Source of the DNA: Mycobacterium pseudokansasii
GTDB taxonomy: Bacteria; Actinomycetota; Actinomycetes; Mycobacteriales; Mycobacteriaceae
Direction of reading: 5' to 3'
Length of the DNA: 64,000 nucleotides
Assembly (NCBI RefSeq): GCF_900566075.1
Contig: NZ_UPHU01000001.1
Location: 4,092,325-4,156,324, forward strand
Both the position numbers and the translations under genes were made by a program. This document shows positions 35,350 through 62,145 of this stretch, one piece after another. Every line of letters starts with the position of its first letter. Within the stretch, counting starts at the first letter, position 1. The notes beneath the pieces are model-generated. The model saw nothing but the letters and a program-made list of their open reading frames with translations, did no database searches and had not been told where the DNA came from.

Positions 35350-35392
35350 ACCGTGAGCAGCATCCGGATGGCCCGGATCGCTGGTCACGAAG

Positions 35393-37314: not shown

Positions 37315-38610
37315 AGCTTAGTGGTCGCTGACATAATTACAGTGACGTAATTCAGGTCCCACACTTCCGTACGGTTACGTGGCATGGTTCTCTCGACGAA
37401 GGGACCAACATGCCACGAACCGGTCCGTATCGCCTGACTCTCACCGATGCCGAGCGCACCGAGCTGAAGGCGCGGGCACGAAGATATACGTCACCGTATT
37501 CGGATGTCGTGCGGGCCAGGATCGTGCTCTACGCCGCCCAGGGGATGGGCAACGACGAGATCGCCGCACGCCTGGACACGCCCCGGCAGGTGGTGTCGAA
37601 GTGGCGTAAACGATTCTTTGACGAACGCCTCGCCGGGCTGACCGATTTGCCCCGGGGAGGACGACCCCCGAATTTTTCCCCCTGACGTGGTGGTCGCGAT
37701 CAAGGCGCTGGCCTGCGAACTGCCGGCCAACACCGGCACGCCACTGGCCCGCTGGCATTGCCCCGACCTGGCCCGCGCGGCCGTCGAGCAAGGTATCGCC
37801 GCCTCGATCTCGGGCACCACGATCTGGCGCTGGCTCAGCGCCGATGCGATCAAACCCTGGCAGCACCGCTCCTGGATCTTTCCCCGCGACCCCGACTTCG
37901 GACCCAAGGCGGGCCGGGTGCTCGACCTCTACGCCCACCGCTTCGATGACACGCCGCTGCGCCCCGATGAGTACGTCATCTCCGCCGACGAGAAGACCTC
38001 CATCCAGGCCCGCATTCGCAAGCACCCCACCACACCCCCGGCACCCAGCCAGCCGGCGCGTGTCGAGGCGGAGTACTTCCGCGGCGGCTCCCTGGCCTAC
38101 CTGGCAGCCTGGGACGTGCACCGCGCCAGAGTATTCGGCCGCTGCGAAGCCACCACCGGCATCGACCCCTTCGACCGGCTGGTCGACCAGGTCATGACCA
38201 CTGAGCCCTACGCCACCGCGCGTCGAGTGTTCTGGGTCGTCGACAACGGCTCCTCTCACCGCGGACAGGCCAGCATCGAGCGGCTCCAGCATCGCTGGCC
38301 GAAACTGCACCTGATCCACCTGCCCGTGCACGCGTCCTGGCTCAATCAAGTGGAGATCTACTTCTCCGTCGTACAACGTAAAGTCCTCTCACCCAACGAC
38401 TTCCACACACTCGACGAGGTCCAGGCCCGACTGCTCGACTTCCAGCAGTACTACGAACAGATCGCCACACCGTTCGAATGGAAGTTCACCAAAGACGATC
38501 TGAACGCCCTACCCGAGCGCATCGCCGCCCACAAAGGCGCCGCCCTCACACCCGCCGCATAACGGACCCAACGAATACGTCACCGAAATTCCGCGCCAGA
38601 CCACTTAGGC
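37315..38610 (+). mobile_element. IS630-family insertion sequence
   Basis: A 1296-bp element bounded by the TA dinucleotide target (37313-37314 and 38611-38612), the family's specific duplication. The terminal inverted repeats are imperfect: both ends share TTAGTGGTC or TAAGTGGTC at about 5-13 bp inside, then AATT and GTGACGTA about 25-40 bp inside. The left neighbour is the istB fragment and the right neighbour the 3' end of mbtB. Confidence 0.88.
37410..38562 (+). CDS. IS630-family transposase in two frames (+1 shift at CCC-TGA)
   Basis: Frame A (37410-37685) encodes the helix-turn-helix part, MPRTGPYRLTLTDAERTEL to RGGRPPNFSP, and stops at TGA. Frame B continues DVVVAIKALACELPANTG to the stop at 38562 and holds the DDE residues: ISADEKTSIQAR (Asp), WVVDNGSSHRG (Asp) and NQVEIYFSVVQRK (Glu). 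Reading TTT-TCC-CCC then skipping one T gives an uninterrupted, family-like protein of about 383 residues. The Pro-tRNA on CCC can re-pair with CCT, leaving GAC next, while TGA would slow decoding, so programmed +1 frameshifting is plausible. A simple one-base mutation in the T5C5 run is the alternative. Confidence 0.8.
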
Positions 38611-41600
38611 TAGCCCTCGGCGAGGACTTCCGCATCGGTCAATGCGGCGACCTCGAGGTAGTGGCGGGCGATAATCGGCAGTCGTTCCGGCGTGCCACGC
38701 TGAGCCTCCCGGGCACCGAGCCGTTCGGCGAATCCGGTCACCGTTCGGGTGGCGAACAAGTCCGAGACCAAGGCATGATCGATGTCCAGCCAGTCGCGTA
38801 CCCGCGCAACGACCGTGGTGGCCAACACCGAATCGCCACCGAGGGCCAAGAAATCGTCCTGCACACCAACCGAATCCACACCCAACACCTCGGCGACAAT
38901 GCCAGCGAGCGCGGCCTCCACATCGTTACGTGCAGCACCGTCCTCATGATCTGTGGCTCCGGGTTCCAGCAGCGCGGCCACGGCGCGGCGGTCCAGCTTG
39001 CCGTTCGCGGTCAGCGGAATCTGCTCGAAGAATACGGTGCGACGGGGAATCATGTAGCCGGGTAATAGATTTACGACTGCCGCCGTGACATCGCCGACCT
39101 CGCCCGGATCGCCCGCGATAGCAGCGATCAGCGTGGGCGCGCTGGTACCGACGACAGCCGCGACGGCATGGCGCACGCCGGGCACGGTACGAAGCGCACT
39201 CTCCACCTCGCCAAGCTCGACCCGATACCCGCGAATCTGCACTTGATTGTCTGCCCTGCCCAGGAACTCAATGGTGCCGTCGGGCCAGTACCTGGCGATG
39301 TCACCCGTCTTGTACCAGCGAATACCACCATGCTCGACGAAACGATCTGCGGTCCGTTGCACGTCATTGCGGTAGCCCGCAGCGACATTTGCGCCGCCGA
39401 CCCACAATTCACCGGCAACCCAGTCCGGGCAGTCGCGACCCGACGGCGCCACGATTCGGCACCGTACATTGCGTAGCGGGATGCCGAACGGCACCGTCGC
39501 CCAGTGCGCCGGTGGTTCGCCGACCACTTCGCACATCGTGTGGTGGATCGAAGTCTCGGTCGCACCGCCGAGGCCAGCGAACCGGCATCCCGGGATCTGC
39601 TTGGCTAGCCGGCGGGGCAGATCAGCGCCCACCCAGTCACCACCGAGAATGACGGCACGCAACGAATCACCCAGCCGATCCCCGCCTAGCTCCAGAATCA
39701 TGTCGAGCAGGCTCGGCACACAGTTGAGAATCGAAACCCTTTGGCGGCGAATCAATTCCACCCATGTTGTCGCCACGTGCTGTTGCCCGGCATCGACCAC
39801 TACCAGTGCCCCACCCGCCGAGAACATACCGAAGATGTCGTAGACCGAGAGATCGAACTCGAGGGCGGACAACGCAAGCGCTCGATCGTTGGTGCCGACC
39901 CCGAACCACTCGTTCACGGCGTCGATCGTGTTCATCGCCGCGCTGTGCGGTACCTCGACGCCTTTGGGCAGCCCGGTCGAACCCGACGTGAACAGTACGT
40001 ACGCGATCTCGCCGGTATCAGGAAAAGCCGGCTCCAAAAGCGGTTCCAGAAAACTGCGTGCCGCATCGATGGATAAACACGGAATCGGTGCACCGACATC
40101 CGCCCCTTCGACCGTCAGCGCCGCAACGACATCACCGGTCTGAAGGATCTTGGCGCGCCGCGCATCCGGCTGGTCGAATCCGATCGGCACATACGTGGCC
40201 CCGGCGGCGAGTACCCCGAGCACGGCCAGGACTTGATCGCGCCCCTTTGGTAATTGGACGGCGACCGCATCGCCGGGTCGTACATCGAGGGCGTGCAGTG
40301 CTCCTGCGACGGCAAGGGCGTGTTCCGCGAGTTCTCGGTAACTCCATGCGCCGCCTAGCTCGCCCACGCCCCAGACTACCGCCGGCGCGTCCGGGTTCGC
40401 CGCCGCATGCTCGAAGAACCCTTGATGCAGACACCTGCCGCTCACCGGACCGTCGGTCGCGTTGATCACCGCACGCAACTGTGCCTGCGCGGGGGGCAAC
40501 CGGACCGGGGCCTCAGCGTCCCAGCCGGCATCGCCTGCAGCGAGCCGTTCGACCGCTTCGGTAAAGTTGGCGAACATGGTGCCGACCAGACCGGGTGGGA
40601 AGGCAGACTCGCTTACGTCCCAGTTGAGCAGCAACCCGCCGCGTACCTCGGTGACCTGGGCGTCCAGCAACACCTGAGGCCCCTGCGAAATGATCCACAC
40701 CGGCTCACCGAAGGTCTCGACGACCTTGTCGGTAAACAGCTCACCGAGATCGAGTGCACTGGTGAAGACCACCGGCGCCAGCACCAGCTTATCCCGGTAT
40801 CTGCTCAGATCGCGTAACACCTCAAGTCCGGAATAGGCGGCGTGTGAACCACTTTCGTACATACTGCGTTGAATCGCGCAGGCCCGCTGGGCGACCGACA
40901 TGTTTTCGGTGACGTCGACCTCGAGCATGATCGAGGAAGTGAAGTCTCCGACCACACGGTCGATGTCCGGGTGCACCGGTTCACGCTGAAATAGCGGAAC
41001 GTTCAGCATAAACTTACTCTGCGCAGACCAACCGCCGATGGTATCGGCGAAGACCGCCGCCAACGCCATGGCCGGGGTTATCCCACGAGCATGGGCGCCG
41101 GCTATCAGTCGCTGCTTTGCTTCCGGCGCCAACCAGTGGTCGTAACGGATAGTGCGATGCGAGGCGGTGCGGTTGCCGATCGGGACGGTCGGCAGTTCCG
41201 GCGCACCAGGCATCTCGGGCAACCGCTGCTGCCACCAGTGTCGGTCTCGCTCTCGCACGGCGCGGTCCTCGTGGCGTTCGGTGCGATAACGCCGGTAACT
41301 GTAACCCGGGGCCGGAATCGTTGTTCCCCAGTACAATTCGGCCAGATCCGATACCACAACGCGATAGCTCATCGCGTCACAGGCCAGCATGTCGACGTCC
41401 AGATGCAGCCGGGTACGGTCCTGGTCGTACCGGGTCAGCGTGATATCGATGACCTGACCGTCTTCAATTCCCAGGCGCTGGTGAGTCTTACCGTGGCGCA
41501 GCTCGGCCAGTGTTGATTGGAGCTTATCGGGGCTGTGCCCACGCAGATCGACAACGCCGAACACCGGCCCGCCCGGCCTTGGCATCGTTTGCTGAGTCCC

Positions 41601-42107
41601 GTCCGGGAGGAATCGGGTGCGAAGCATTGGATGTCTCGCGACGAGGTCGGACACCGCCCTTTCCAGGCGTCCTGGATCTATTCCCGCACCGTCGAATTCG
41701 ACGTAGAGATGGGCCGCGACACCGCCGAGCTCCTGTTCATCGGAGCGGCCGACCCAGTACGCGTGTTGCATGGGGGCCAAGGGGAATGGAGTTTCTTCGG
41801 CCGCCGGCACGGGGAGCTGAGCTGCGCCTGGCTCTGCCGCCGTTCCCATCTCATCCGCGGTGAGCAGAGCGTGCCACGAATCGATCGTGGGGCTGGCGGC
41901 AAGTTGGGCGAAAGTTACGTTGGCACCACGTTGACGCCAGCCGCCGGCCAGCGCCATCATACGGATCGAGTTCAGGCCCAGCTGAATGAGATTGTCGTGG
42001 TCGGCCACGTCTGCGGCCGCGCATCCGAGCTGAGCAGCAACCGTCGCCCTGATGGCGTCCCTGCTGATCCGGTCCACTGCGCCGTCCATCCCCCGCACCG
42101 GCTTCAT
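38610..42107 (-). CDS. mbtB: Mycobactin-type NRPS MbtB: ArCP-Cy-A-PCP, thioesterase end missing
   Basis: It loads salicylate and joins it to Ser or Thr to form the (methyl)oxazoline of the siderophore. The 1165 residues show an aryl carrier domain (LIQLGLNSIRMM, phosphopantetheine Ser47 preceded by Asn rather than Asp) and a cyclisation domain from about residue 100 (FPLAPMQHAYWVGR; DVDMLACDAMSYR in place of HHxxxDG). An adenylation domain runs from about 560 to 1030 (LFTSGSTGLPKG, GLGGATETSIHH), followed by a PCP (LALGGDSVLATT). M. tuberculosis MbtB (about 1414 residues) continues into a thioesterase. Here the stop TAG is formed by the TA target plus the first base of IS630, right after YLEVAALTDAEVLAEG. 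The start overlaps mbtF by ATGA. Confidence 0.9.
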   Translation of the reverse strand: MKPVRGMDGAVDRISRDAIRATVAAQLGCAAADVADHDNLIQLGLNSIRMMALAGGWRQRGANVTFAQLAASPTIDSWHALLTADEMGTAAEPGAAQLPVPAAEETPFPLAPMQHAYWVGRSDEQELGGVAAHLYVEFDGAGIDPGRLERAVSDLVARHPMLRTRFLPDGTQQTMPRPGGPVFGVVDLRGHSPDKLQSTLAELRHGKTHQRLGIEDGQVIDITLTRYDQDRTRLHLDVDMLACDAMSYRVVVSDLAELYWGTTIPAPGYSYRRYRTERHEDRAVRERDRHWWQQRLPEMPGAPELPTVPIGNRTASHRTIRYDHWLAPEAKQRLIAGAHARGITPAMALAAVFADTIGGWSAQSKFMLNVPLFQREPVHPDIDRVVGDFTSSIMLEVDVTENMSVAQRACAIQRSMYESGSHAAYSGLEVLRDLSRYRDKLVLAPVVFTSALDLGELFTDKVVETFGEPVWIISQGPQVLLDAQVTEVRGGLLLNWDVSESAFPPGLVGTMFANFTEAVERLAAGDAGWDAEAPVRLPPAQAQLRAVINATDGPVSGRCLHQGFFEHAAANPDAPAVVWGVGELGGAWSYRELAEHALAVAGALHALDVRPGDAVAVQLPKGRDQVLAVLGVLAAGATYVPIGFDQPDARRAKILQTGDVVAALTVEGADVGAPIPCLSIDAARSFLEPLLEPAFPDTGEIAYVLFTSGSTGLPKGVEVPHSAAMNTIDAVNEWFGVGTNDRALALSALEFDLSVYDIFGMFSAGGALVVVDAGQQHVATTWVELIRRQRVSILNCVPSLLDMILELGGDRLGDSLRAVILGGDWVGADLPRRLAKQIPGCRFAGLGGATETSIHHTMCEVVGEPPAHWATVPFGIPLRNVRCRIVAPSGRDCPDWVAGELWVGGANVAAGYRNDVQRTADRFVEHGGIRWYKTGDIARYWPDGTIEFLGRADNQVQIRGYRVELGEVESALRTVPGVRHAVAAVVGTSAPTLIAAIAGDPGEVGDVTAAVVNLLPGYMIPRRTVFFEQIPLTANGKLDRRAVAALLEPGATDHEDGAARNDVEAALAGIVAEVLGVDSVGVQDDFLALGGDSVLATTVVARVRDWLDIDHALVSDLFATRTVTGFAERLGAREAQRGTPERLPIIARHYLEVAALTDAEVLAEG

Positions 42108-45100
42108 TCCGCTCCGTTCTCTGTCATACCAGCGGCAAGCACGGCGATGCCACGTTGCCAGAACTGCATCAAACGGTCGATATCTGAGGGTGTGAATAGA
42201 GCATCACTCCACAGCCAGTTCGCGGTCAGTTGCGGGCCGTCGGGCGTAGAACGTACAAATGCGCTGATGTGCAGGGCAAAGCGCAGTGGCAGATCTGGCT
42301 CGGGATCGACCGGTAAAAATTCAATGTGAGGCCAGGTCAGTGGTGACCAAGGTTGATCCGTGACGCCGCTGAGGTCCAGCCGACCCATGTAATTGAACAT
42401 GATTTGCGGGTCGGGGGCCTCCTGCAATTCGGGGATGTGGTCAACATAACGAAGCAGACCGTAATCCAAACCACCATATGGGATACCCGTGAGGTAGGTG
42501 GTTACCGAATCGAGTACCGCCCGGGCGGCCTGCGGATCCGCCTCGGCCTGCTTGATATCGACAGCCGCAGCACCAGTTCCGAGCCGCACCGGAAACGCGC
42601 TGGTAAACCAACCGACGGTGTTCGTAGTGTCGGTGTCGAGAGTGGCATCAGCACGCCCATGGCTCTCCAGAGCGATGAGCACGCCGGAAGACGGGTCCTG
42701 CGCGTGAACACCACGCCAGCTCGCGACGGCAATCGCGATCGCGGCCAGCAAGAATTCGCGCATTCCCTCCTCTCTGGTGACTGCGGCCAGCACCCGCTCA
42801 GTGGCCTGAACCGCCGTTTCGGTCGGGGTGATCCGCAACGTGGACCAGGTATCCCGGCTGGGGTCTGGATGTCGTGCACCCAACGCGGGATCGGGCCCGC
42901 GGACCTGCGCGACCCAGTATTCGCGTTGGTTCCGCACCTCCGGTGTAGCCGTTCGTTTCCACATCAGCTCCGACCAGTGGCGGTACGAAGTGAACTCTGG
43001 CAGCGCCTTCGGCGTTGCGCCCAAAGTCAACGAACGCCACGCCTCGGCGATATCACCCAACATGATGTGCCAGGACACCACATCCACCGCCAAGTGGTGC
43101 ACGGTGAGGAGCAGCACCTGTTGGTCCACGCCAGACAGCCAAACCGCACGTACCATCGCTCCCGCGCGGGGATCAATCTCGTCGATCACTCGCCGCGCCT
43201 CATATCTTATAGCCGAGTTCAGTTCGGTATCAGTCGATTTCGTCAGCTCCCCGCGGGAAAGTAGGTCGGCGGCGCGGACCACGCCAGGTTCACGAGTCAC
43301 CAGACGCGGCCCGTCGGGCGTGTCGGCCAGAATCGATCGCAGGGTGTCATGCCCATCGAGCAACAACTGCAGCATCAGCTCAATCGAGGAACGCTCGATC
43401 TCGCAGGGCAATCGAAGCAGGATGGTGTGCGTGAAGCGACGATAGTTGCCATACTCGTAAAGGCACGACACTATCGGCAGTGGCAGCACCTCACCGTATT
43501 TGGCACTCTCAACGCACGGACCCGAACCGGCCGCTCCGTCGATCGTGGCCGCGAGTTGGCGAATTGTCGCAGCGGTGAACACCATCCGCGGATTCAATGC
43601 GAGGCCCCGGCGTCGAGCCTTGTGGACCAACGAGATCGCCACAATGCTGTCTAATCCGAGCGAGAAGAAGTCGTCGTCGATGTGCGGCACCATGCCGTTG
43701 AATTGCTCTTCGAATACTGTGCACAGCGACCGCTCGGTGGCGGTGGACGCCGACTCCGCGCCACCGCCTGTGACGTGCCGGACGGCGGTCTCGGCCAGCC
43801 GGTCCAAAGCATGGTTATCCAGCTTGCCGTTGTCATTCACCGGCAGCCAAGGTAATGCCATGATCCGGACCGGGAGCATGTACGCGGGCAGGTGTTCGGT
43901 GAGCGCAGCACGCAGGCGCGCCAGGTCAGCGTGCGCATTCGCTTGCCACACAACGAATCCCACCAGGCTGGTGCCGCCATCACGGCGTACAACGGAGACG
44001 GCCGCGTCGTGTACCCCAGGCTGGCTACGCAGGGCGGCCTCGATCTCGCCAATCTCGACGCGGTAGCCGCGGATTTTGATTTGGGTATCGCTGCGTCCCA
44101 CATAGGTGTAGCCGCCATGAGGTAAGCGACGGACCAAGTCACCAGTGCGGTACATGCGCTGTCCAGGGCGCAGCGGATCGGCCACGAAGCGAGCGGCGGT
44201 CAGTGCTGTTCTGCCGGCATAGCCGCGGGCCAGCTGCGCGCCCGACAGGTAAAGCTCACCTACCACGCCGGTGGGCACTATCCGCAACGCGGAATCCAAG
44301 ACGTACCCGAAGGTTCCAGCGTTCGCCGTGCCGATTGTCGGTGTCTGGTAGTCGTGGACCGAGGCCACCACCGCCTCGACCGTCATTTCGGTGGGCCCAT
44401 AGCAGTTGTAGACCGCGTTGTAGGCCGGGGCCGCCGACAGCGCGCGCAACTGCCCCCAGAGTGCCGCATTGATCGCTTCGCCGCCCAGGGCCAATACCGA
44501 AAGGTTGTGATCCAACAATCCGGCAGCACGCAGCTGCACAAACATCGACGGAGTAGTGTCGATCATGTCGATCCGGTAAGTGGCGATACCTTTCACCAGC
44601 CGATCCGCATCGCGTATCTCGTCGGCGTCGAACAGATGAATCCCATGACCGTCCAGCAGGCCAACCATAGGCTGCCACGAGGCGTCGAAGCTTAACGACC
44701 AGGCGTGCGCGATCCGCAGCCGGCGGCGTAGACGCCGTGCGGCCTCCCGGTAGACCCGCTCGCGGTGGTCGGCGAAATAACTGAGTAATGCGGCATTGGT
44801 GCCAATGACCCCCTTGGGTTCACCGGTCGAGCCAGACGTGAAGATGACGTAGGCGCAGTGTTCCGGATGACGGCGAACCAACGGCGCGGCGGCAGCACGT
44901 CGCGAAATGCGCTCGGCCACGCGGGGATCGTCGAGAACCAACGTGGGAACCCTTGCGCCGACTAGCTTTCCATAACCGGCCTCGGTGATTGCAAACACCG
45001 GATTTGCTTGGCGGAACATAGATTCGATACGAAGTTCAGGAAGCGTCACATCGACGGGCAGATAGGCGCCGCCGGCGGCGAGCACGGCCAGGATGGCGAC

Positions 45101-51699: not shown

Positions 51700-51821
51700 G
51701 CCTCGTCTACTCCTGCTATCCGCGGCTCTTGACCTGCAACGACACCACACGCACCAATGAACCTCTCTCCACCGGCCATGCAAATGGCGTCCGCTCTGAG
51801 CGGCATCCCCCGCCCAGGGGC

Positions 51822-51840
51822 TTATGTTAGCCTTCGCTAA
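51822..51840. promoter_or_regulatory. IdeR-type iron box between mbtE and the acyltransferase
   Basis: The minus strand reads TTAGCGAAGGCTAACATAA, matching 15 of 19 positions of the IdeR consensus TTAGGTTAGGCTAACCTAA. It sits in the divergent intergenic region (51700-51941), about 120 bp before mbtE and 100 bp before the plus-strand operon, and could control both. Confidence 0.7.
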
Positions 51841-51866
51841 GTTTGATGGCTGTTGCGGCTATAGCG
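51822..51866 (+). repeat. Promoter duplication, copy 1
   Basis: A 45-bp segment repeated at 52580-52624. The first 22 bp, including the iron box, are identical, and most of the rest agrees (ATGGCT, TTGCGGCT). The two copies bracket the acyltransferase gene. Confidence 0.8.
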
Positions 51867-51941
51867 GCTACGGGACCGGATCAACCCTGCGTCCGATACG
51901 TTCATGCGAATTGTGCGGGTCCTTCGGTCGGGAGGTATGCG

Positions 51942-52579: not shown

Positions 52580-52598
52580 TTATGTTAGCCTTCGCTAA
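52580..52598. promoter_or_regulatory. IdeR-type iron box upstream of the thioesterase
   Basis: Identical 19-mer to 51822-51840 (plus strand TTATGTTAGCCTTCGCTAA), 57 bp before the thioesterase start. It suggests a second iron-regulated promoter for the thioesterase-mbtC-mbtD genes. Confidence 0.7.
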
Positions 52599-52624: not shown

Positions 52625-52654
52625 CAGCGACCGTAAGCGAAGGGGTAGTGGTGC

Positions 52655-53413
52655 ATGCCGCGCACAGTGGGATGGATGAGGCAATTCCATCGGCCGGATT
52701 CGGCCAACAGCCTTCCGCTGCTTGTCTTTCCGCATGCCGGGTCCGGCGCATCGGCCTATCGCGACTTCTCGAAAGTGCTCAGCACGACGTTCACGGTCAT
52801 CGTGTTCCAATACCCGGGACGTCAGGATCGGGCAGCCGAAGCCCCCTTGGACTCGCTTCCCGACATCGCTGCCGGGGCATTCGCCGAGTTTTCGACGACA
52901 GAACACCACCGCGGGATTCCGATCGTCGTATTTGGTCATAGCATGGGGGCGCTGGTGGCTTTCGAGTTTGTCCGGATCGCCGAAACCAGCGGAATCGACG
53001 TGCGGCACCTCCACGTGTCCGCCGCGGTTGCACCTTCCCGAGTCGCGGCCAAACCACCACACCCCAAGGACGACGAGGAGATCCTCGACCATCTGGCAGC
53101 GCTCGAGGGAACCGATACCGACGTGTTCGCGAACCGCGACCTCATGAGAATGGCACTGCCCGTGATCAAAGCCGACTACAACGCCTTTGACGCGTACTGC
53201 TGCGCTGAAGATGTCAAGATAGCGACCCCGGTTCACGCCATGGGCGGTGATCAGGACCCGTTCATCACGCTGGGCGATCTCTACGGGTGGGGCAGACACA
53301 CCGACACCGCCAGGGTCACGATGTTCGACGGCGGGCACTTTTACCTGAAGTCACACATCGGCGCTGTCGCGGAGCTGTTGGTGTCGAGCGCGCGATGTGA
53401 GCAGACCGCGTGA
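52655..53413 (+). CDS. Free-standing type II thioesterase (MbtT-like)
   Basis: An alpha/beta-hydrolase of 252 residues of the GrsT/MbtT family, which clears misprimed carrier domains or releases product. The catalytic Ser96 lies in FGHSMGALVAFEF. The Asp is probably in GGDQDPF and the His in DGGHFYL. LVFPHAGSGASAYR near residue 25 is the family's oxyanion region. It resembles the C-terminal thioesterase of M. tuberculosis MbtB, the domain missing from mbtB here, so it may supply that role (inference). An iron box and promoter repeat lie just upstream. Its stop overlaps the start of mbtC (GTGA). Confidence 0.9.
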   Translation: MPRTVGWMRQFHRPDSANSLPLLVFPHAGSGASAYRDFSKVLSTTFTVIVFQYPGRQDRAAEAPLDSLPDIAAGAFAEFSTTEHHRGIPIVVFGHSMGALVAFEFVRIAETSGIDVRHLHVSAAVAPSRVAAKPPHPKDDEEILDHLAALEGTDTDVFANRDLMRMALPVIKADYNAFDAYCCAEDVKIATPVHAMGGDQDPFITLGDLYGWGRHTDTARVTMFDGGHFYLKSHIGAVAELLVSSARCEQTA

Positions 53414-54717
53414 ACAACGACGCCTCCATCGATCCCATCGTCATTTCCGGCATGGCTGTCGAGGCCCCCGGGGGAATCGATACACCCAGCGCCTGGTGGT
53501 CGGCGCTGACCGAAGCCAGGGAGTTGATCGCCCCCTTTCCGCGCGATCGCGGCTGGCCCCTCGATGAACTGCAGTCGTTATCCCGGCTCGATGGCTGGGG
53601 GCATGTGTGCGACGCCGGCGGATTCCTCGACGGCGCCGGCACATTCGACCCTACCTGCTTTGGCGTCACCCATCGGGAAGCCATCGCGATGCACCCACAG
53701 CAACGAGTGGTGCTGCGAGTGGCGTGGAAGACCTTGGAAAATGCCGGAATTAACCCCGGCAGGCTCGAGGGCGCAGACGTCGGCTGTTTCGTCGGCATGT
53801 CGCAGACGGAGTACGGCCCCCGGGTGGCTACGGTCGACGCCTACAGTGGACACCGGCTTGTCGGTATGGGCCAGCTCGGTGGCGCTGGACGGATCTCGCA
53901 CTGCCTTGGCCTGATCGGTCCATCAATGGCCATAGATTCGGCGTGTGCATCGTCGCTCACCGCACTGCAACTGGCTGCTACCTCGGTTCAGACGGGCGAG
54001 TGCGAATGGGCGCTAGCCGGCGCGGTGTGTGTGATGGGTTCGCCGGCCGCTTTCTACGAGTTTGCACGCCTTCATGCTCTTTCCGATGACGGGCATTGCC
54101 GCGCGTACTCCGACGACGCTACCGGTACTGTTTGGGGCGAAGGCGCCGGGATGGTTCTCGTCGAACGTGAGTCTCGGGCGCGGAAATTGGGACATCGGAT
54201 CTTCGGACGCATCCTGGCCGTTCGCACCAACCACAACGGCAAAGGAAAGCCGATACTCATTCCTCGCGTGCGCGCGCAAGAGCAACTGATGCGCAAGACG
54301 ATCGCTGCGGCGGGAATCGACCCTGTCGATGTGGGAATGATCGAGGGACACGGCACCGCGACTCCAGCGGGTGACCCGGTGGAATTGCTGGCTCTTTTCC
54401 GAACCTACGGCGCATTGGGCTCCGAGGCGCTGGTGGGCTCGGTGAAGTCGAATGCCGGACATGCGCAGGCAGCCTCCGGAATACTCGGCCTCATCAAGCT
54501 GCTGCTCGCCGGCGCGCACGGTCAGATTCCGCCGACTCTCTTTTCGGACAACCCGACCAAGAAGTTGGACTGGGATATGACGGGCCTGCGATTGGCGACA
54601 AAACTGCATCAGTGGGAACCCATAGATGGCGTCCGCTACGGCGCCGTGTCCTCGTTCGGCGCCGGAGGCGCCAATGCGCATGCGATCATCGCGATGCCGG
54701 TGAATAGCGGGGTGTGA
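53410..54717 (+). CDS. mbtC: Polyketide ketosynthase MbtC
   Basis: A stand-alone beta-ketoacyl synthase (435 residues; Rv2382c about 444) for the beta-hydroxybutyrate-type extension of mycobactin, acting with MbtD. The active-site Cys179 sits in DSACASSLTAL, the first His in EGHGTATPAGD and the second in KSNAGHAQAASG. The start is a GTG overlapping the thioesterase stop. It is followed 4 nt later by mbtD. Confidence 0.93.
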   Translation: MNNDASIDPIVISGMAVEAPGGIDTPSAWWSALTEARELIAPFPRDRGWPLDELQSLSRLDGWGHVCDAGGFLDGAGTFDPTCFGVTHREAIAMHPQQRVVLRVAWKTLENAGINPGRLEGADVGCFVGMSQTEYGPRVATVDAYSGHRLVGMGQLGGAGRISHCLGLIGPSMAIDSACASSLTALQLAATSVQTGECEWALAGAVCVMGSPAAFYEFARLHALSDDGHCRAYSDDATGTVWGEGAGMVLVERESRARKLGHRIFGRILAVRTNHNGKGKPILIPRVRAQEQLMRKTIAAAGIDPVDVGMIEGHGTATPAGDPVELLALFRTYGALGSEALVGSVKSNAGHAQAASGILGLIKLLLAGAHGQIPPTLFSDNPTKKLDWDMTGLRLATKLHQWEPIDGVRYGAVSSFGAGGANAHAIIAMPVNSGV

Positions 54718-54721
54718 CAAC

Positions 54722-57700
54722 GTGACACCGCTGACCTACCGGCTTCCGAACGGCACCGTACCCGTCCTGCTGTCGTCGGACACTCCCGACTTGTTGCGCC
54801 ACGAGGCCGCCGCCCTGCTTTCCTATGCGGCAGATCATCCCGACGTCGCACCACAGGCGATCGCCGGAATGTTGTTTCGGACACGGACCGCACGTCGACA
54901 CCGGGCCCTGGCCATGGTTGCCGATCGCGGCGATCTTGTCGAGGCCCTACAGGCGGTCGTCAGTGACCGCGAACATCCTTTGTTGGTACGGACAAACACA
55001 CCCGCGACCATCCGCCGCCGTGCATACGTTTTCCCCGGGCAGGGAAGCCAACGACCTGGGATGGGGCGGCTGCTCTATGAATCGATGCCGGCATTCCGTG
55101 CCGAGGCGGATCGCTGCGCCGCGGCCTTCGCGACACAGTTCAGTGACTCCCCCTTGGATTACCTTCTCGACGAAGGCTTTTCGGCCGGAGACCGCGCCGG
55201 TGTCGTCCAGCCGGCCTTGTTCACGCACATGGCCGGGCTGGCCGCCTTGTGGCGATCATTCGGCATTGTGCCCAACGTCACCATCGGCCACAGCCAAGGC
55301 GAAATCGCCGCGGCGTACGTATCCGGCGCGATGACGTTGGAAGATGCCGTCCGGGTCGTCGGGATACGCGCACAAGCAGCCGACCAGTTCGCTTCCGGTG
55401 ACTACGCGATGGCAGTCGTCGCCGCCGGCCGCGACACCTGTGAGGAGATACTGGCGCGTAGCCCGGGGTGGGCGCAGCTGTCAGTGGTCAATTCTCCTGC
55501 CATGGTGGGCATTTCGGGTGATCGAGAAATGGTGCAGGGCATCGTCGACACGTTCACCCAGCGCGGCACCTTTGCGCGGATCATTCGGGTGCACTACCCG
55601 GCGCACACCAGCTTGATCAACGAGCTTGGCGCCAAGGTGCGCGTCGCCATGCAACGCCAATTGCAGAATCCGAAGTTCCTCGACACGGAGATCGACTGCC
55701 TTGGCGCCACCCTCGGTGGCCCCATGACACCGGACCTGCCGATCGACCAATATTGGTTCTGGAACCTGCGCAATACCGTTCGATTCGACAAGGCGATCGC
55801 GGCCGCGGTGCAGCGCGACGTCGATACGTTCGTCGAACTGGCCGAACACCCGACGCTCCAATTGGCGATTCACGAGAATCTCGCCACGCAGTCGGATGAC
55901 CGCCCGAGGATGGTGGTCGGCACCACAGACCGAGCGGCAGCAGGTCTCGACCAGTTCACCCGCAACCTCGCGCAGCTGGCTCTGGATGACCTGGACTACT
56001 CGTGGGATTGTCTGGGCACCTCGTCGGGCGGACCGATCTCCCTGCCGTTGTTGGATTTTCCCAATACTTGCATGCACCAGACCCGGCTGTGGCTGCCATA
56101 CGAGGACGTCCAGGCGCGCCATGCCCGCCAAACCCCTTCTACCGCATCGGTGGCCGTGGCCGAGGGACAAGGCCCGATTCCCAAGACCACGCCGGCGCGA
56201 CGTCTCGCCGAGGACTGGGTACGGTTGTCGCAGCGCTCGCTGTTACCACCACGTGCCATTGCAATCGCTGATCACACTGGATGCTGCGCGGACCTGGTCT
56301 CCGCGGTCTGTATGGCGGCCGGAGAACTCGGCGCCGCCGCATGCCTGATTGGCGGCGAAAATACGGTTGCCCAAGGCCATCTCGACGCCCAGGTGATCCT
56401 TATTCCGCAATCGCCGGCGCTGGGCGACAGGGCGGCCGCAGCCGAGGTCGCGACGTTCTTCGGCAATCGCACATGGTGGCCGGCACTCAGCGACGGGGTC
56501 AGCGACTGCTGGCTGGTGACGGTCGCCGGTGAGGCGGTCGTCGCCGATGATGTACCGCCCGATCCCGTGCACGCGGCAGCAAGCGCAGGCTTTCGCTGCA
56601 TCGGCGCCGAACATCTGGACGTGAGGTTCCGGCATCTCGATCTACCGGCCGGGCTGACGACAGCAGAATCGGCGGACGCGATCCTCGCGGCGGTCCATAC
56701 CCCCGAAGAACCGGAGCTCGCATTCCGCAACGGCGGCCTCTACGCTAAGCGGCTCGTCGAAAATGAGACCCGCGACGCCGACTCTGGTACCGCGCCTCCC
56801 GAACATGCGCTCATCATCGGTGGGACCGGAAACCTCGGGCTCGAATTCTGCGATCATTTCGCCCACCACGGCGCGCGACGAATCACCCTGGTGAGCAGAT
56901 CCGGGGAGACTGCTGCGGTCGCAGCTCGATTGCAACAGATTCGTTCGGCCACCCCGGCCCAAATCCGGGTCACCAGCTGCGACGTAGGCGATCCAGCGGC
57001 AGTGTCACAATTGGCCTCCGCAAATCGGGACGCACCCACGGATCTGATCATCCATGCCGCCGTCGACGCCTATGCGGTCATCGAGTATGCAGACATCACC
57101 GCCGAGAAGGCGAATCAGGCGTTGCGCGCCAAGGTTGTCGGCATTTCCCGAATACTGCAAGCCTTCCCCCGGACGGACAACTGTCGCGTGGTTCTGTGCT
57201 CTTCGGCGGCGGCGACGATCGGTGGTCGTGGCCAGGTCCTGTATGCGGCAGCCAATCGAATGCTCGACGCCATGGCGCACCGGTTCCGTGCCCAGGGTCT
57301 GGACTGCGTTTCTGTGCAGTGGGGCCAATGGGTACATCATGATCTCGATGCCGCCGGTAGGGCACGGTTGTCCCGGATCGGTGTCCTGCCCATGTCTTCC
57401 GGCGATGCGATCACGATGGGACTGGCGTCGTTTCGTCACAACGTCGTCGTCGCGGCATTCGACTTCGATCGTGCGCGGCCGGTGCTGGAAATGTTGGGAT
57501 ATGGTCCGTTGGTGTCGCAGCTGAGTCCACCGCTCGTCGAAACGGGGGCTTCCGCAGAGCGGACCGAACTGCCACGGCAGTTGATACACCTTTTGGCCGA
57601 GGTCACTGGTGTGGACCGCGCCGAGACAATTGACGTCACCGTCCCCATGGTCGCGATCGGCCTGGATTCTTTGCAGGCACTGGAGTTACGGCGACGTGTC

Positions 57701-57790
57701 CAGACTGAGTTAAATCACGACCTAGAGGTCTCGGATCTTCTCGGCGGGGCCTCCGTTGCCGACATTTTGGCGCAGCTTGGCGCACAGTGA
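54722..57790 (+). CDS. mbtD: Polyketide synthase MbtD: AT-KR-ACP
   Basis: A PKS lacking its own ketosynthase, paired with MbtC; 1022 residues (Rv2381c about 1004). The acyltransferase domain has VFPGQGSQRPGMG and GHSQGEIAAAYVSG, with nucleophile Ser191. A central ketoreductase domain carries the NADP loop IIGGTGNLGLEF, the SSAAATIGG segment with YAAANRMLDAMA, and VSVQWGQW. The C-terminal ACP carries the phosphopantetheine Ser983 in AIGLDSLQALE. The product fits a malonyl extension reduced to a beta-hydroxy unit. The start is GTG 54722, directly behind mbtC. It ends tail-to-tail with the mbtH remnant. Confidence 0.92.
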   Translation: MTPLTYRLPNGTVPVLLSSDTPDLLRHEAAALLSYAADHPDVAPQAIAGMLFRTRTARRHRALAMVADRGDLVEALQAVVSDREHPLLVRTNTPATIRRRAYVFPGQGSQRPGMGRLLYESMPAFRAEADRCAAAFATQFSDSPLDYLLDEGFSAGDRAGVVQPALFTHMAGLAALWRSFGIVPNVTIGHSQGEIAAAYVSGAMTLEDAVRVVGIRAQAADQFASGDYAMAVVAAGRDTCEEILARSPGWAQLSVVNSPAMVGISGDREMVQGIVDTFTQRGTFARIIRVHYPAHTSLINELGAKVRVAMQRQLQNPKFLDTEIDCLGATLGGPMTPDLPIDQYWFWNLRNTVRFDKAIAAAVQRDVDTFVELAEHPTLQLAIHENLATQSDDRPRMVVGTTDRAAAGLDQFTRNLAQLALDDLDYSWDCLGTSSGGPISLPLLDFPNTCMHQTRLWLPYEDVQARHARQTPSTASVAVAEGQGPIPKTTPARRLAEDWVRLSQRSLLPPRAIAIADHTGCCADLVSAVCMAAGELGAAACLIGGENTVAQGHLDAQVILIPQSPALGDRAAAAEVATFFGNRTWWPALSDGVSDCWLVTVAGEAVVADDVPPDPVHAAASAGFRCIGAEHLDVRFRHLDLPAGLTTAESADAILAAVHTPEEPELAFRNGGLYAKRLVENETRDADSGTAPPEHALIIGGTGNLGLEFCDHFAHHGARRITLVSRSGETAAVAARLQQIRSATPAQIRVTSCDVGDPAAVSQLASANRDAPTDLIIHAAVDAYAVIEYADITAEKANQALRAKVVGISRILQAFPRTDNCRVVLCSSAAATIGGRGQVLYAAANRMLDAMAHRFRAQGLDCVSVQWGQWVHHDLDAAGRARLSRIGVLPMSSGDAITMGLASFRHNVVVAAFDFDRARPVLEMLGYGPLVSQLSPPLVETGASAERTELPRQLIHLLAEVTGVDRAETIDVTVPMVAIGLDSLQALELRRRVQTELNHDLEVSDLLGGASVADILAQLGAQ

Positions 57791-57832
57791 ACATGGCTGC
57801 CGAGCGAATCTCGGCTGAATCTGTTGTGGGGT

Positions 57833-57986
57833 CATTACCTCGCGCAAATTCTTCGCGCGCACGTCAGTCCGGTTCTCGTCAACGTACGAAAAGCAATTCG
57901 CGCGGGTGCCACAGACTGTGCTGTTCCTCGTCGTTACCCACGAGGTAGAACGTGCCGTTGTCGTCATCGAACGGACTGGTACTCAC
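57833..57986 (-). pseudogene. mbtH: MbtH remnant with internal deletion and frameshift
   Basis: A GTG at 57986, inside the end of mbtG, opens a 35-codon frame: STSPFDDDNGTFYLVGNDEE then QHSLWHPRELLFVR and a TGA at 57879. The first 26 residues match MbtH-like proteins, which chaperone NRPS adenylation domains. In the next frame CFSYVDENRTDVRAKNLREV, the normal C-terminal part, follows. About 18-20 residues between SLW and the CFSYV part, including the conserved tryptophan region, are missing. M. tuberculosis has mbtG followed by intact mbtH. The remnant cannot encode a working chaperone. Confidence 0.85.
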
Positions 57987-59253
57987 CGCTTCTTCCAATC
58001 GGTCGGTCCTCGACGCCCATCTCGGCGCCCAGCACCCGGTCGGACAGCAGCCCCAGGCAGCTCAAGTTGGGAAATCCCGGACCCTCATTTACACCGGATA
58101 GATTGGGCAAGAACAGTTTCGGGGCGACTCCGACGACAGCCAAGTCATACCCGATGGCCTCCTCCAGCCGCGCACATGTCAACGGCTCGCCAACTTCGAG
58201 CTCCAGCAGATCGACAGCGGCCCGGCTCAATAGCGGCATAAACCACAGCGGATCTGCACCGGATCCGTCGATGACGAGATCGAAGCGATGAAGGGTCTCG
58301 CGCGGTTCACCGCAGTTGTCGGTGCAGAGCGTGATCCAAATTCGGCCGTCGTTTTCGACCACGCCACCAACGCGCCCGCGCAAATGGCGGATCCTCTCGT
58401 CGGCCAGTAGCGCCTCCTGAACCCGCGCAGAAAAGACCCCGCGGTCGGTGCGGGCAATACAGTCCCGCCGTTCGGCTCGGCTGAGGCTGTTCCACCCGGT
58501 GGGGTCGGAAAACAGCGAGTTCTCGAAGAAACCCTCCCCCCGGGTGAAGAGGGTTGCTTGCGGGGAAATCGCCGTGATCGCCGACACCCGGTGATGGAAC
58601 AGCTCGTTGAGAACCGACGCCGCGGTCTCTCCACCGCCGATGACCGCGACATTTTCCGCAACAATGCGCTCGTGTCGCCCGGCTCGCTCCCAGAACTGCG
58701 CGATCGACAACAGTCCCGGAGCACCGGAAAGCATGGACCGTTCCGGCTGACCCGGACCGGTAACCATCAGCGTCTCGGCCGACAAGCTCGACTCACGGGT
58801 GTGCAGTACCCAATGCGATTCGTTGGCCGAAATCTGAACTACTTCACCGCGAACAACTTTCATTGCCACTCGGTCGGCGACCCAACGCAGATACTCGGCC
58901 CAGGTATCGTGTGTCGGAGCCGGCCTGCCCCGGTCGATCCAGCCGACAAGTTGGTCCGTAGCGACCAGATATGACTGCCAGCTAAACCGCATCATTCGTT
59001 CGTCGAGTTCGGCATTGCGCCCTGGAACCAGCGCCGACCGATACGGGAAGCCGACGTCCTTTTCCGGGCTTGTGCCCAGCCGCTGCCGGCCGTCCGTCCA
59101 GCCGCCCCCGGCCCGCCAATTGGCCGCCACGCCGGCGCGTTCGACGGCGACGACGTCGCCCACCTCAATGCCCATGTCCCGCAGCGTCGCGGCCTTCGCA
59201 GCCACCGCCACCGCCTTCGCGCCTGCCCCGACAACCGCGAGCATCGTGTTCAT
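57964..59253 (-). CDS. mbtG: Lysine N6-hydroxylase MbtG
   Basis: An FAD- and NADPH-dependent monooxygenase that hydroxylates the lysine side chain for the hydroxamates of mycobactin. I chose ATG 59253 (MNTMLAVVGAGAKAV), which matches Rv2378c; an in-frame ATG at 59298 adds 15 unrelated residues. The length is 429 residues. Residues 9-11 belong to the FAD-binding glycine loop, and VAVIGGGETAASVLNELF is the NADPH loop. GTSPEKDVGFPYRSALVPG and TLFTRGEGFFENSLFSDPT are family stretches. It shares the divergent promoter region (59254-59435) with mbtA, with two iron boxes. Confidence 0.95.
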   Translation of the reverse strand: MNTMLAVVGAGAKAVAVAAKAATLRDMGIEVGDVVAVERAGVAANWRAGGGWTDGRQRLGTSPEKDVGFPYRSALVPGRNAELDERMMRFSWQSYLVATDQLVGWIDRGRPAPTHDTWAEYLRWVADRVAMKVVRGEVVQISANESHWVLHTRESSLSAETLMVTGPGQPERSMLSGAPGLLSIAQFWERAGRHERIVAENVAVIGGGETAASVLNELFHHRVSAITAISPQATLFTRGEGFFENSLFSDPTGWNSLSRAERRDCIARTDRGVFSARVQEALLADERIRHLRGRVGGVVENDGRIWITLCTDNCGEPRETLHRFDLVIDGSGADPLWFMPLLSRAAVDLLELEVGEPLTCARLEEAIGYDLAVVGVAPKLFLPNLSGVNEGPGFPNLSCLGLLSDRVLGAEMGVEDRPIGRSGEYQSVR

Positions 59254-59356
59254 CGTGGACCCGACGACCGCGCTGAACGGTGGGGACGGTCGTGGCATTC
59301 CGAGTCCGCCTGCACGCCGCCGAGTGATGCGCGGCCCACCACACCACCTCCACTGC

Positions 59357-59396
59357 TTAGCTCAGGCTGCCCTAACTTCGTGTTAGGCTACCCTAC
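59357..59396. promoter_or_regulatory. Tandem IdeR-type iron boxes between mbtG and mbtA
   Basis: Box 1 (59357-59375, TTAGCTCAGGCTGCCCTAA) matches 15 of 19 and box 2 (59378-59396, TCGTGTTAGGCTACCCTAC) 14 of 19 positions of the IdeR consensus. They are 21 bp apart centre to centre and end 39 bp before mbtA. In M. tuberculosis the mbtA-mbtB divergent promoter is IdeR-controlled; here the same control appears between mbtA and mbtG. Confidence 0.75.
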
Positions 59397-59435
59397 GTCC
59401 GAGGGGCAGGACACGTTCGACCCAGGGGGCATTAC

Positions 59436-61073
59436 GTGCCAGTTACTTCTGTCCAGCCGCCGCAACCGGCGTCGCTGTCGGGATTCGTCCCCTTTCCTCC
59501 AGAACGGGCAGCGAGATACCGGGAAGGCGGGTACTGGAGCGGTCACACAGTTGATGCGCTGTTACGGCGGGCCGCGTCGACATGGCCGGACCGCGTTGCT
59601 GTGGTCGATGACGCCGGCAGCCATACCTACTCCGAACTCGACGGACTCGCGGACCGAGCCGCCGCGGGCATAGCCGGTCTCGGTATTGCGCCCACCGACC
59701 GGGTGTTGCTGCAGTTGCCGAATACGCGCCAGTTCGCCGTGGCGCTGTTCGGCCTGCTGCGTGCCGGGGCCATTCCAGTGATGTGCCTGCCCGGGCACCG
59801 GTTCGCCGAACTCAACCACTTCGTCGAGGTCAGTGGCGCGGTCGGCCTCGTCCTCGCCGAGACGGCGGGCGGATTCGACTACCGCGTGCTTGCCCAACAG
59901 TTGGTGGCGGCGCACCCGCAGCTGCGCCACGTCATCATCGACGGGAATGGCGGTCCTTTCCTGTCGTGGTCGGCATTGCCCGGCGGCCAGCCACCCGAAT
60001 TCGCGGCCGACACCACCGCACCGGCCTTGCTGCTGGTGTCGGGGGGCACCACGGGCACCCCGAAGCTCATCCCACGCACCCATGACGATTACGTCTACAA
60101 CGCCACCGCCAGTGCCGAGCTGTGCGGACTGACCTGCGATGACGTCTATCTGGTGGCCCTGCCGGCCGCCCACAACTTCGCGTTGGCATGCCCCGGCATT
60201 CTCGGGACGCTCAGTGCCGGCGGCACCGTCGTGTTCGGCACCGATCCCAGCCCGGAAGCCGCGTTCGCCACGATCGAGCGTCACGGCGTTACCGTGACGG
60301 CCTTGGTGCCGGCCCTGGCCAAATTGTGGGCCCAAGCCTGCCATTGGGAGCCGGTGACTCCAAAGACGCTGCGGCTCCTGCAAGTTGGCGGGTCCAAGCT
60401 GGAGCCTGAGGATGCCCGCGCGGTTCGGGCGGCGTTGACCCCGGGCCTGCAGCAGGTGTTCGGGATGGCGGAGGGACTGGTGAACTTCACCCGGCTCCAC
60501 GATCCTGCGGAAGTGGTCGAGCACACCCAGGGGCGACCGTTGGGCGCCGCCGATGAACTCCGCATTGTCGACGCCGACGGAGTACCGGTGCCTCCCGGTT
60601 GTGAAGGCGAACTATTGACCCGGGGCCCATACACGATCAACGGCTATTTTCGGGCCGCAGATGTCAACGAACTCTGCTTCGATCCCGACGGCTTCTATCG
60701 CAGCGGGGACCTGGTCCGCCTTCGCCAGGACGGCTACCTGGTGGTCACCGGGCGGGTCAAAGACGTCATCTGCCGTGCCGGCGAAACCATTTCCGCCCGC
60801 GACCTCGAAGAGCATCTGCTCAGCCACCCGGGGATCTGGTCAGCTGCGGCAATTCCGCTGCCGAATCCGATTCTAGGCGAAACAATCTGTGCTGCAGTTG
60901 TTTTCGTCGGCCAGCCAGTCACCCTTGCCGAACTGAACGGCTACCTCGACGAGCGCGGCGTGGCTACCCACGCCCGGCCCGACCTGTTGTTGCCGCTGAC
61001 ATCACTGCCCACCACGCCGGTCGGCAAGATCGACAAGAACGCCATCGCGCGCCAGGCTCTCGCGCGGCGATAG
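59436..61073 (+). CDS. mbtA: Salicyl-AMP ligase MbtA
   Basis: A stand-alone adenylating enzyme that activates salicylate with ATP and loads it onto the aryl carrier domain of MbtB. The length is 545 residues (Rv2384 about 565). The P-loop is LLVSGGTTGTPKLIPRTHDD. VALPAAHNFALACPGIL, FGMAEGLVNFTRL and FYRSGDLVRLRQDGYLVVTG are typical of aryl-acid ligases (EntE/DhbE/MbtA). The C-terminal catalytic lysine region is VGKIDKNAI. The start is GTG 59436 with GGGGG 8 nt upstream, just behind the tandem iron boxes. Confidence 0.95.
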   Translation: MPVTSVQPPQPASLSGFVPFPPERAARYREGGYWSGHTVDALLRRAASTWPDRVAVVDDAGSHTYSELDGLADRAAAGIAGLGIAPTDRVLLQLPNTRQFAVALFGLLRAGAIPVMCLPGHRFAELNHFVEVSGAVGLVLAETAGGFDYRVLAQQLVAAHPQLRHVIIDGNGGPFLSWSALPGGQPPEFAADTTAPALLLVSGGTTGTPKLIPRTHDDYVYNATASAELCGLTCDDVYLVALPAAHNFALACPGILGTLSAGGTVVFGTDPSPEAAFATIERHGVTVTALVPALAKLWAQACHWEPVTPKTLRLLQVGGSKLEPEDARAVRAALTPGLQQVFGMAEGLVNFTRLHDPAEVVEHTQGRPLGAADELRIVDADGVPVPPGCEGELLTRGPYTINGYFRAADVNELCFDPDGFYRSGDLVRLRQDGYLVVTGRVKDVICRAGETISARDLEEHLLSHPGIWSAAAIPLPNPILGETICAAVVFVGQPVTLAELNGYLDERGVATHARPDLLLPLTSLPTTPVGKIDKNAIARQALARR

Positions 61074-61155
61074 CTCCACGGTTCCCGACGAGGCGGGCGT
61101 CGCACATTCAAAGCTGCCATTGACTAATGTCACCATTTGGTATTGACTGCGATTC

Positions 61156-62145
61156 ATGACGGACGTCGTTCCGGCTCGCGGGTCATTGCGGTCCCGCACT
61201 GCGGTAGCAGTAAGCACGGTGATCATGCCGACGATCACCGGCGCGATACCGCCGGAGCGCGCCTGGGGGATGTGGCTGACGCGTCAGCTCATCACCCGAC
61301 TCATGGGAACGTTCGGGCCCTCGTTGGCCGGTACCCGGGTCGAATACGTCGATTCCGTGTTGCCAGACGGTCGCCGGGTCCGCGGCGAATGGGTAGTCGG
61401 GCCCCACACGCCGACGACGCGTTGGTCGACCGGTGCCATCTACTACGTGCACGGCAGCGGCTACACGATGTGCTCACCCCGGACACACCGGCGGCTGACG
61501 TCGTGGCTGTCGTCGCTGACCGGACTGCCGGTGTTCTGCGTCGACTACCGCCTGGCGCCGCGTTACCGGTTCCCCACCGCCGCCGACGACGTGCGTGCCG
61601 GCTGGGACTGGCTACCGGGAGCATCTGGATTGCCGCCGGAACGCGTTGTGATCGTTGCCGATTCGGCCGGAGGACATCTGTCGGTCGACATGTTGCTGCA
61701 GCCCGACGTCGCCGCTAGACCGCCGGCGTCGCTGGTGCTGTTCTCACCGCTGATCGACCTCACGTTCGCGCTGTCGGCCGAGCGTGAGCAGCTACGGCCC
61801 GATCCAGCCGTCCGGGCCGCCGCCGCAGCGCGCGTCGTCGGCCTTTATCACGCCGGCGTCGACCCCAGCCATCACCGCATCAGACTCGACGTTGCCGGCG
61901 GACCCGTTCTGCCGAATACGCTGATCCAGGCCGGGGAGGCCGAGATACTGGAGGCCGACGCGCGTCGACTCGCCGCTGACATTCGCGCCGCCGGCGGCAG
62001 TTGTGAGTTGCAGGTGTGGCCCGATCAGATGCACGTTTTCCAGGCGCTGCCGCGGATGGCTCCCGAAGCAGCCAAGGCCATGGCATACGCCTCGCAATTC
62101 ATTGCAAACTCGTTGCTGGACAACGCTGATGCCGAGGCCGTCTGA
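61156..62145 (+). CDS. mbtJ: MbtJ, alpha/beta-hydrolase (hormone-sensitive lipase type)
   Basis: A putative acetyl-hydrolase/esterase found behind mbtA in mycobacteria (Rv2385, 306 residues); its role in mycobactin synthesis is not established. The oxyanion motif is HGSGYTMCSPRTHRRL (HGSG at residues 99-102), and the nucleophile elbow is VADSAGGHLSVD. The C-terminal WPDQMHVFQALPRM holds the probable His. The ATG at 61156 gives 329 residues. An in-frame ATG at 61225 (MPTITGAIPPE) corresponds better to the M. tuberculosis start, giving 306 residues; neither has a clear ribosome site. It lies 82 bp after mbtA. Confidence 0.9.
   Translation: MTDVVPARGSLRSRTAVAVSTVIMPTITGAIPPERAWGMWLTRQLITRLMGTFGPSLAGTRVEYVDSVLPDGRRVRGEWVVGPHTPTTRWSTGAIYYVHGSGYTMCSPRTHRRLTSWLSSLTGLPVFCVDYRLAPRYRFPTAADDVRAGWDWLPGASGLPPERVVIVADSAGGHLSVDMLLQPDVAARPPASLVLFSPLIDLTFALSAEREQLRPDPAVRAAAAARVVGLYHAGVDPSHHRIRLDVAGGPVLPNTLIQAGEAEILEADARRLAADIRAAGGSCELQVWPDQMHVFQALPRMAPEAAKAMAYASQFIANSLLDNADAEAV

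Follow-up and report, generated by a model that had tools for sequence, protein, structure and literature searches.

A predicted nocobactin-type siderophore locus at the usual mycobactin site of Mycobacterium pseudokansasii

The nocobactin cluster of Nocardia, nbtA-H, has been described with the domain orders T-Cy-A-T for NbtF, C-A-T-C-T for NbtD and C-A-T-E for NbtE, with a choice between a GNAT acyltransferase and a formyltransferase and, in some subfamilies, with a SagB-type dehydrogenase (PMC7413640). In mycobacteria, MBT Ab of Mycobacterium abscessus and MBT M of Mycobacterium marinum are reported to carry the lipid tail on the polyketide unit and no N-acyl group, the long alkyl chain of MBT Ab being placed on the MbtC-MbtD unit (PMC9505556). 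The plasmid pMAH135 of M. avium subsp. hominissuis bears a cluster described as mycobactin genes (PMC4324632), the NbtC of which is named in a further report (PMC11877719). Here we analyse a siderophore locus in a 64,000-nucleotide stretch of M. pseudokansasii DNA (the window; C1:4092325-4156324 of a genome of two contigs and 6.43 Mb), which a preliminary description had read as a mycobactin locus in a non-canonical order.

We interpret the locus as an nbt-type cluster at the usual mbt site, predicted to produce a nocobactin-like (M-type) mycobactin in which the polyketide hydroxy-acid unit, and not lysine, bears the lipid tail; we put the probability of this interpretation at about 0.87. The window polyketide synthase (PKS) scored 1489.1 bits against the NbtC model NF037941, over the cut-off of 1150, and 722.1 bits against the MbtD model NF037940, under the cut-off of 1150. 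A homologue search with NbtF, the predicted starter nonribosomal peptide synthetase (NRPS), gave matches at an E value of 1e-170 in 312 of the 396 genomes of the genus; 52 genomes had identities of 67-100%, and the next rows among the matches listed stood at 50-54%. In a tree of 25 rows (17 NbtF and 8 MbtB, with G063 left out; G-numbers denote the genomes compared), the window protein fell with the 16 other NbtF rows, including those of pMAH135, Nocardia gamkensis and Williamsia, and was split from the eight MbtB rows at 100/100, with a long-branch warning for the Williamsia and MbtB rows. The domain orders of the three window NRPSs equal those given for nocobactin. Together, the NbtC score, the NbtF tree and the domain orders identify the locus, at the level of its predicted enzymes, as nocobactin-type, and both the tailoring gene and the lysine N-hydroxylase gene of an nbt cluster are present (Table 1).

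The canonical mycobactin locus (mbt-1; M. tuberculosis, read here in G186) shares with the window its chromosomal site and the genes mbtA, mbtG, mbtJ and mbtI. In G186, mbtB-TE-C-D-E-F run in one direction beside mbtA, whereas the window lacks both a co-directional mbtB-C-D-E-F block divergent from mbtA and an MbtD-family PKS over the cut-off. In their place stand nbt enzymes, and canonical mbtD-G, without mbtB, occur at another place in the genome, with MbtD at C1:4660586. The preliminary description had the genes and strands right (mbtE-F-B minus; acyltransferase, thioesterase, mbtC and mbtD plus; mbtG minus; mbtA-mbtJ plus), as it did the order and the broken mbtH after mbtG, and its guess of a possible different mycobactin agrees with the predicted product. 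The comparison it had proposed, between mycobactin and nocobactin enzymes, groups the starter NRPS with Nocardia NbtF rather than MbtB, so that a scrambled mycobactin locus no longer describes these genes. The acyltransferase and free thioesterase that it had regarded as brought into the locus are NbtH and NbtA, regular parts of nbt loci.

Nor is the order peculiar to one lineage, a possibility that had been raised. Of 396 genomes of the genus, 69 have an NbtC over the cut-off, and nbtF and nbtC lie on opposite strands, spanning 18.4-20.3 kb, in 46 of the 52 NbtF genomes; five of the other six have the two genes on separate contigs and one has no listed NbtC. Divergence of nbtF-E-D from nbtA-B-C was seen in all 17 NbtF loci read at full length, and nbtE-D oppose nbtH-A-B-C, in the part covered, in four of four named loci (M. 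intermedium, M. colombiense, Mycobacterium sp. 1274756.6 and Mycolicibacter acidiphilus). After nbtC come mbtG and mbtA in 17 of 20 loci, the exceptions being G088, G050 and G341. pMAH135 has the same order of sagB, nbtF-E-D and nbtH-A-B-C, but is plasmid-borne, has no mbtG or mbtA in its annotated stretch and encodes proteins 59-76% identical to those of the window. In M. abscessus, the locus tags put mbtD-mbtC-mbtT (MAB_2119c-2121c) and mbtE (MAB_2122) on opposite strands (PMC9505556). The finding that the preliminary description had named as fatal to its proposal, the same order in common mycobacteria and already described, is thus largely what pMAH135 and M. abscessus provide. An assembly error was rejected, as identical joins recur in independent genomes.

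In Nocardia, by contrast, the NRPS genes that were found share the direction of nbtA-B-C in 8 of 8 loci examined (four further loci, one short and three distant, are outside this count), whereas the mycobacterial loci are divergent and have mbtG, mbtA and mbtI alongside. The gene content is therefore common to Nocardia and the divergent order is mycobacterial; an order copied from Nocardia was rejected on the same count. The NbtF-type starter is absent from 19 of 70 NbtC genomes, among which the one locus read was that of G341, where NbtC is present without an NbtF-type match and the layout differs. G341 has a hybrid arrangement, with nbtA-B-C approximately 8.7 kb downstream of mbtE-F-G and all in one direction, and in four other NbtC genomes without NbtF (G039, G063, G122 and G313) an MbtB lies 27-32 kb from NbtC.

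The gene set suggests the following route. MbtI would supply salicylate, and MbtA would transfer it to the first NbtF carrier domain; NbtF would then add and cyclise serine or threonine, the adenylation-pocket residues being too uncertain for a choice between the two, and SagB would oxidise the oxazoline to an oxazole. NbtD is predicted to add a lysine, which MbtG would hydroxylate and NbtH acylate, likely with an acetyl group. NbtB and NbtC would extend a long-chain acyl group to a beta-hydroxy acid, to be joined as an ester by NbtD, and NbtE would add the last lysine, which would be hydroxylated and leave the enzyme as a caprolactam. NbtA would act in editing, by clearing mischarged carriers, and under iron-replete conditions the operons would be repressed by IdeR. 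The sequence itself shows the gene families, their domain orders, the place in the genome, the joint occurrence of sagB and nbtF and the way in which the block diverges; the enzymatic steps, the product, its regulation and the horizontal replacement of the block are deduced from these.

Two tailoring genes bear on the form of the product. In Nocardia, nbtH has been associated with acetyl, terH with formyl and co-located sagB with oxazole products (PMC7413640); the window carries nbtH and sagB, and by analogy its product is predicted to be oxazole-type and likely N-acetylated. The nbtD-nbtA gap holds the GNAT gene nbtH in the window, G091, G057, G236, G006, G074, G219, G071, G094 and pMAH135, a minus-strand formyltransferase-like gene in 20 of the 52 NbtF genomes, and neither gene, in approximately 300 bases, in G088 and G050. 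sagB is present in 44 of 396 genomes, 42 of which have NbtC. Thirty-four NbtF genomes carry it; its distance from nbtF is no more than 100 bp in 33 of these and 19,649 bp in the window. G140 and G215 have a SagB match but, at the threshold used, none to NbtC.

Several observations weigh against our interpretation. The siderophore of the window strain is a prediction from genes, including the GNAT gene nbtH, a point of difference from MBT Ab and MBT M. Nocardia araoensis and N. takedensis have nocobactin-type clusters, yet no nocobactin was found in either, and the compound obtained from N. araoensis was of the mycobactin type (PMC7413640), so that the chemotype is not wholly determined by the genes. 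With the mbtH of the window cluster broken, its NRPSs would need another MbtH. The formyltransferase and sagB are not strictly exclusive, sagB also occurring in 5 of the 20 formyltransferase loci, and the sagB of the window, while intact in frame, lies apart from the cluster. Lastly, a second locus in the genome, described below, could contribute enzymes.

Regulation by iron was addressed by a search for iron boxes with the consensus and five-mismatch rule of PMC9505556, with ten Markov-1 nulls as control. The window has five predicted boxes, one of them within nbtE and the other four in the intergenic gaps nbtD-nbtH, nbtH-nbtA and mbtG-mbtA, compared with 0 or 1 site in each null, and another directly precedes mbtI; a stricter search (at most three mismatches) found none, and no predicted box lies near sagB in the window scan. 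Of 17 other loci scanned, 15 (among them pMAH135) have the 19 bases of the nbtD-nbtH box unchanged, in either orientation, even where identity is only 60-80% for many of the proteins. G088 and G050 carry different boxes, and the M. colombiense box differs at one base. We infer that IdeR may bind these boxes, and the three regulated promoters of the preliminary description stand as a prediction.

The second locus lies at C1:4.657-4.677 Mb, 0.5 Mb from the window, and encodes a thioesterase, MbtD (1412 bits, over the cut-off of 1150), MbtE, MbtF, MbtG, a full-length MbtH match and an MbtK-like GNAT protein. Its MbtE has 2178 residues in the order C-A-T-C-A-T; the canonical MbtE of G186, which stands beside its own mbtB, aligns over all 2178 positions, so the extra A domain is no novelty of the second locus. 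We read this locus in seven genomes (the window genome, G074, G091, G057, G158, G071 and G219, but not G216). A KS was found there in all six relatives, the genomes that this search covered, no mbtB match was found in the stretches of these six, and no mbtA was seen at the locus in the window genome. A second mbtB copy was rejected, as no T-Cy-A-T protein other than NbtF was found in the window genome. MbtD occurs in 9 of the 52 NbtF genomes, and 8 of the 9 have a single T-Cy-A-T match. Omega was 0.16-0.21 for the second-locus mbtE (six pairs) and 0.21-0.36 for its mbtD and mbtF (comparisons without the mbtF of G057, where the stretch is cut off, and without G236), values that point to purifying selection on mbtD-G. 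Extra mbtC-F copies outside the mbt locus have been reported in three other nontuberculous species (PMC10667711), and a second locus as such is therefore not new.

The N terminus of MbtE gives a further contrast between genomes with and without mbtB. A RRLELLRRKLAEKG-like helix is present in 4 of 4 canonical-control MbtE proteins and in 8 of 8 readable NbtD N termini (that of G091 was unreadable), and is degenerate or lost in 6 of 7 MbtE proteins from genomes without mbtB, G071 keeping part of it. We infer that the helix may be a docking element.

The synonymous divergence of the nbt genes departs from that of their surroundings (dS, by a simple Nei-Gojobori estimate). Between the window and G074 or G158, dS was 0.13-0.21 for hrcA, mbtI and Rv2387, 0.26-0.32 for cfp2, 0.31-0.35 for hemN and 0.20 for the second-locus mbtE, whereas genes from sagB or nbtF through mbtA had values of 0.57-1.08. 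The pattern is reversed against G057, with 0.10-0.20 for nbtF-nbtC and 0.33, 0.31 and 0.39 for hrcA, mbtI and Rv2387. Against G091, nbtF-nbtC stood at 0.03-0.11 and mbtI at 0.12, and mbtA and mbtJ jump to 0.60. G158 has the formyltransferase gene and no sagB match. A several-fold rise in synonymous divergence confined to one block goes beyond what protein selection alone would give, and exchange of the block is the best explanation; versions of the nbt block that differ between near relatives have probably been swapped horizontally between species.

A bolder scenario, which we put forward tentatively and at less than even odds, is that the mbt site acts as a siderophore-type exchange locus. 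Nbt haplotypes (acetyl with oxazole, formyl with oxazoline) would be swapped between near-sister species while the flanks descend vertically, switching the chemotype in one step; the displaced canonical mbtC-G line would survive at the second site without mbtB, the MbtE docking helix or a detectable iron box, as a separate, salicylate-free product line.

Three other accounts have to be set against the predicted nocobactin-type cluster. If NbtF and MbtA also fed the second locus, one starter would serve two lines, and nocobactin-type and mycobactin-type siderophores would both be made. This account draws on the single T-Cy-A-T protein of the genome, on the 8 of 52 NbtF genomes that pair MbtD with no second T-Cy-A-T match, on the low omega of the second-locus mbtE and on the MbtH and MbtK-like proteins encoded there. 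We nevertheless find it rather doubtful: the MbtE concerned lacks the helix that canonical MbtE and NbtD have in common, no iron box was found in the stretches read around the second locus, and these features make it less likely that the NbtF starter is simply shared. Alternatively, the window could hold an ordinary mycobactin locus in which mbtB-H were merely shuffled, with an N-acyl-lysine product. The site, with mbtG, an mbtH remnant, mbtA, mbtJ and mbtI, would fit, as would two more PF13523 acyltransferases over the cut-off (C1:1713309 and C1:4676363), but the enzyme families and the tree refute this account at the gene-family level, the true mbtD lies elsewhere in the genome, and we give it the least credence of all.

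It is also very unlikely, though slightly less so, that the cluster is a decaying relic from which no siderophore is made. Such decay could be read from mbtH, where at least two distinct lesions account for the breaks in the window, G057 and G091 (that of G091 differs), and from the transposase-rich nitrate insert that severs sagB from nbtF. Against it, the nbt genes are intact long frames, with omega of 0.08-0.33 in comparisons with G091 and G057, save for nbtH (0.48 and 0.39, on few changes), and of 0.11-0.34 with more distant genomes; the iron boxes are kept, and three full-length MbtH matches exist elsewhere in the genome.

The product class itself has precedents in M. abscessus, M. marinum and Nocardia. 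What is new here is the severed sagB, the nbt block replacement, as we read it, between near relatives and the mbtD-G set without mbtB 0.5 Mb away. In a search mostly outside the subscription literature, we found no prior report of these, of the order fixed across the genus or of a single site with a mosaic of tailoring genes. The presence of polyketide-tailed siderophores in M. abscessus and M. marinum has been portrayed as unusual (PMC9505556), and the occurrence of NbtC over its cut-off in 69 of 396 genomes stands beside that view; the mycobactin label on such loci, for example that of pMAH135, hides the difference. Should the block indeed move between species, the type of siderophore would be decoupled from the species phylogeny, with a bearing on cross-feeding, cheating and drugs aimed at mycobactin enzymes. 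The mbtB-less locus, in turn, raises the question of what role a mycobactin line has without its starter.

The features of the window are collected in Table 1; NRPS domains are Pfam matches read together with the sequence, with Cy and E assigned by motif and position. The three minus-strand NRPS genes overlap their neighbours by 4 bases each. The true start of nbtD is probably near 51699, and that of nbtH probably downstream of 51843. The top NCBIfam match of mbtA was a 2,3-dihydroxybenzoyl-AMP ligase model, at 563.9 bits below that model's cut-off of 723.55. Past the mbtJ side of the window we found mbtI (598 bits) and open reading frames (ORFs) that we take, by resemblance, for Rv2387 and hemN, which places the locus at the usual mycobacterial mbt site; on the left, ORFs were presumed on the same grounds to be hrcA and dnaJ. 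The preliminary description had also put the canonical side near cfp2, and cfp2 is indeed there.

Table 1. Features of the siderophore locus and its surroundings (positions within the window)
Feature	Position	Strand	Description
cfp2	16855-17526		MTB12 family, 233.6 bits; ~21 kb from nbtF
sagB	17591-18967	+	SagB/ThcOx-type azoline dehydrogenase; predicted reaction, oxazoline to oxazole; TIGR03605 150.2 bits (cut-off 78.4); PF00881, PF22767
Insert, 19.6 kb	18968-38609		Between sagB and nbtF; GCTAG at both edges
nbtF	38610-42107	-	T-Cy-A-T; predicted salicyl-oxazoline starter module; mbtB of the preliminary description
nbtE	42104-46672	-	C-A-T plus terminal condensation-fold domain read as E; formerly read as mbtF
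nbtD	46669-51783	-	C-A-T-C-T; formerly read as mbtE
Predicted iron box	51822-51840		nbtD-nbtH gap
nbtH	51843-52499	+	GNAT N-acyltransferase (PF13523); predicted to acylate hydroxylysine
Predicted iron box	52580-52598		Upstream of nbtA; identical to the box at 51822
nbtA	52655-53413	+	Thioesterase-like alpha/beta hydrolase; pMAH135 homologue annotated as alpha/beta fold hydrolase
nbtB	53410-54717	+	Stand-alone ketosynthase (KS)
nbtC	54722-57790	+	Polyketide synthase, AT-KR-T
mbtH remnant	57823-57986	-	Internal deletion and frame change; PF03621 matches at positions 2-25 of 53 only
mbtG/nbtG	57964-59298	-	Predicted lysine N6-hydroxylase; 67% identity over 408 residues to the second-locus MbtG, itself PF13434-matching
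Two predicted iron boxes	59357-59375, 59378-59396		Between mbtG and mbtA
mbtA/nbtT	59436-61073	+	Predicted salicyl-AMP ligase (aryl-AMP ligase)
mbtJ-like gene	61156-62145	+	Lipase-fold esterase; hormone-sensitive-lipase family matches, all below cut-off

The insert that separates sagB from nbtF carries genes for a uroporphyrinogen-III synthase-like protein, nirB, an MFS transporter, narG and narH, with narJ and narI assigned by position, together with transposase genes of the IS256, rve, Mu and IS630 types. G057 and G091 are uninterrupted, their sagB and nbtF matches lying 3 bases apart, and the GCTAG found at both edges of the insert occurs once in G057. The insert cuts neither flanking frame.

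Some further variation was seen among the related loci. The mbtH gene is degenerate in G074 and G023 and intact in G029, G236, G367, G161, G381 and G105. The nbtC, nbtD and nbtE matches of G045 are each frame-split, by pseudogene formation or sequencing errors, and in G074 and G219 an NRPS-like sequence adjoins mbtA on the side away from mbtG.

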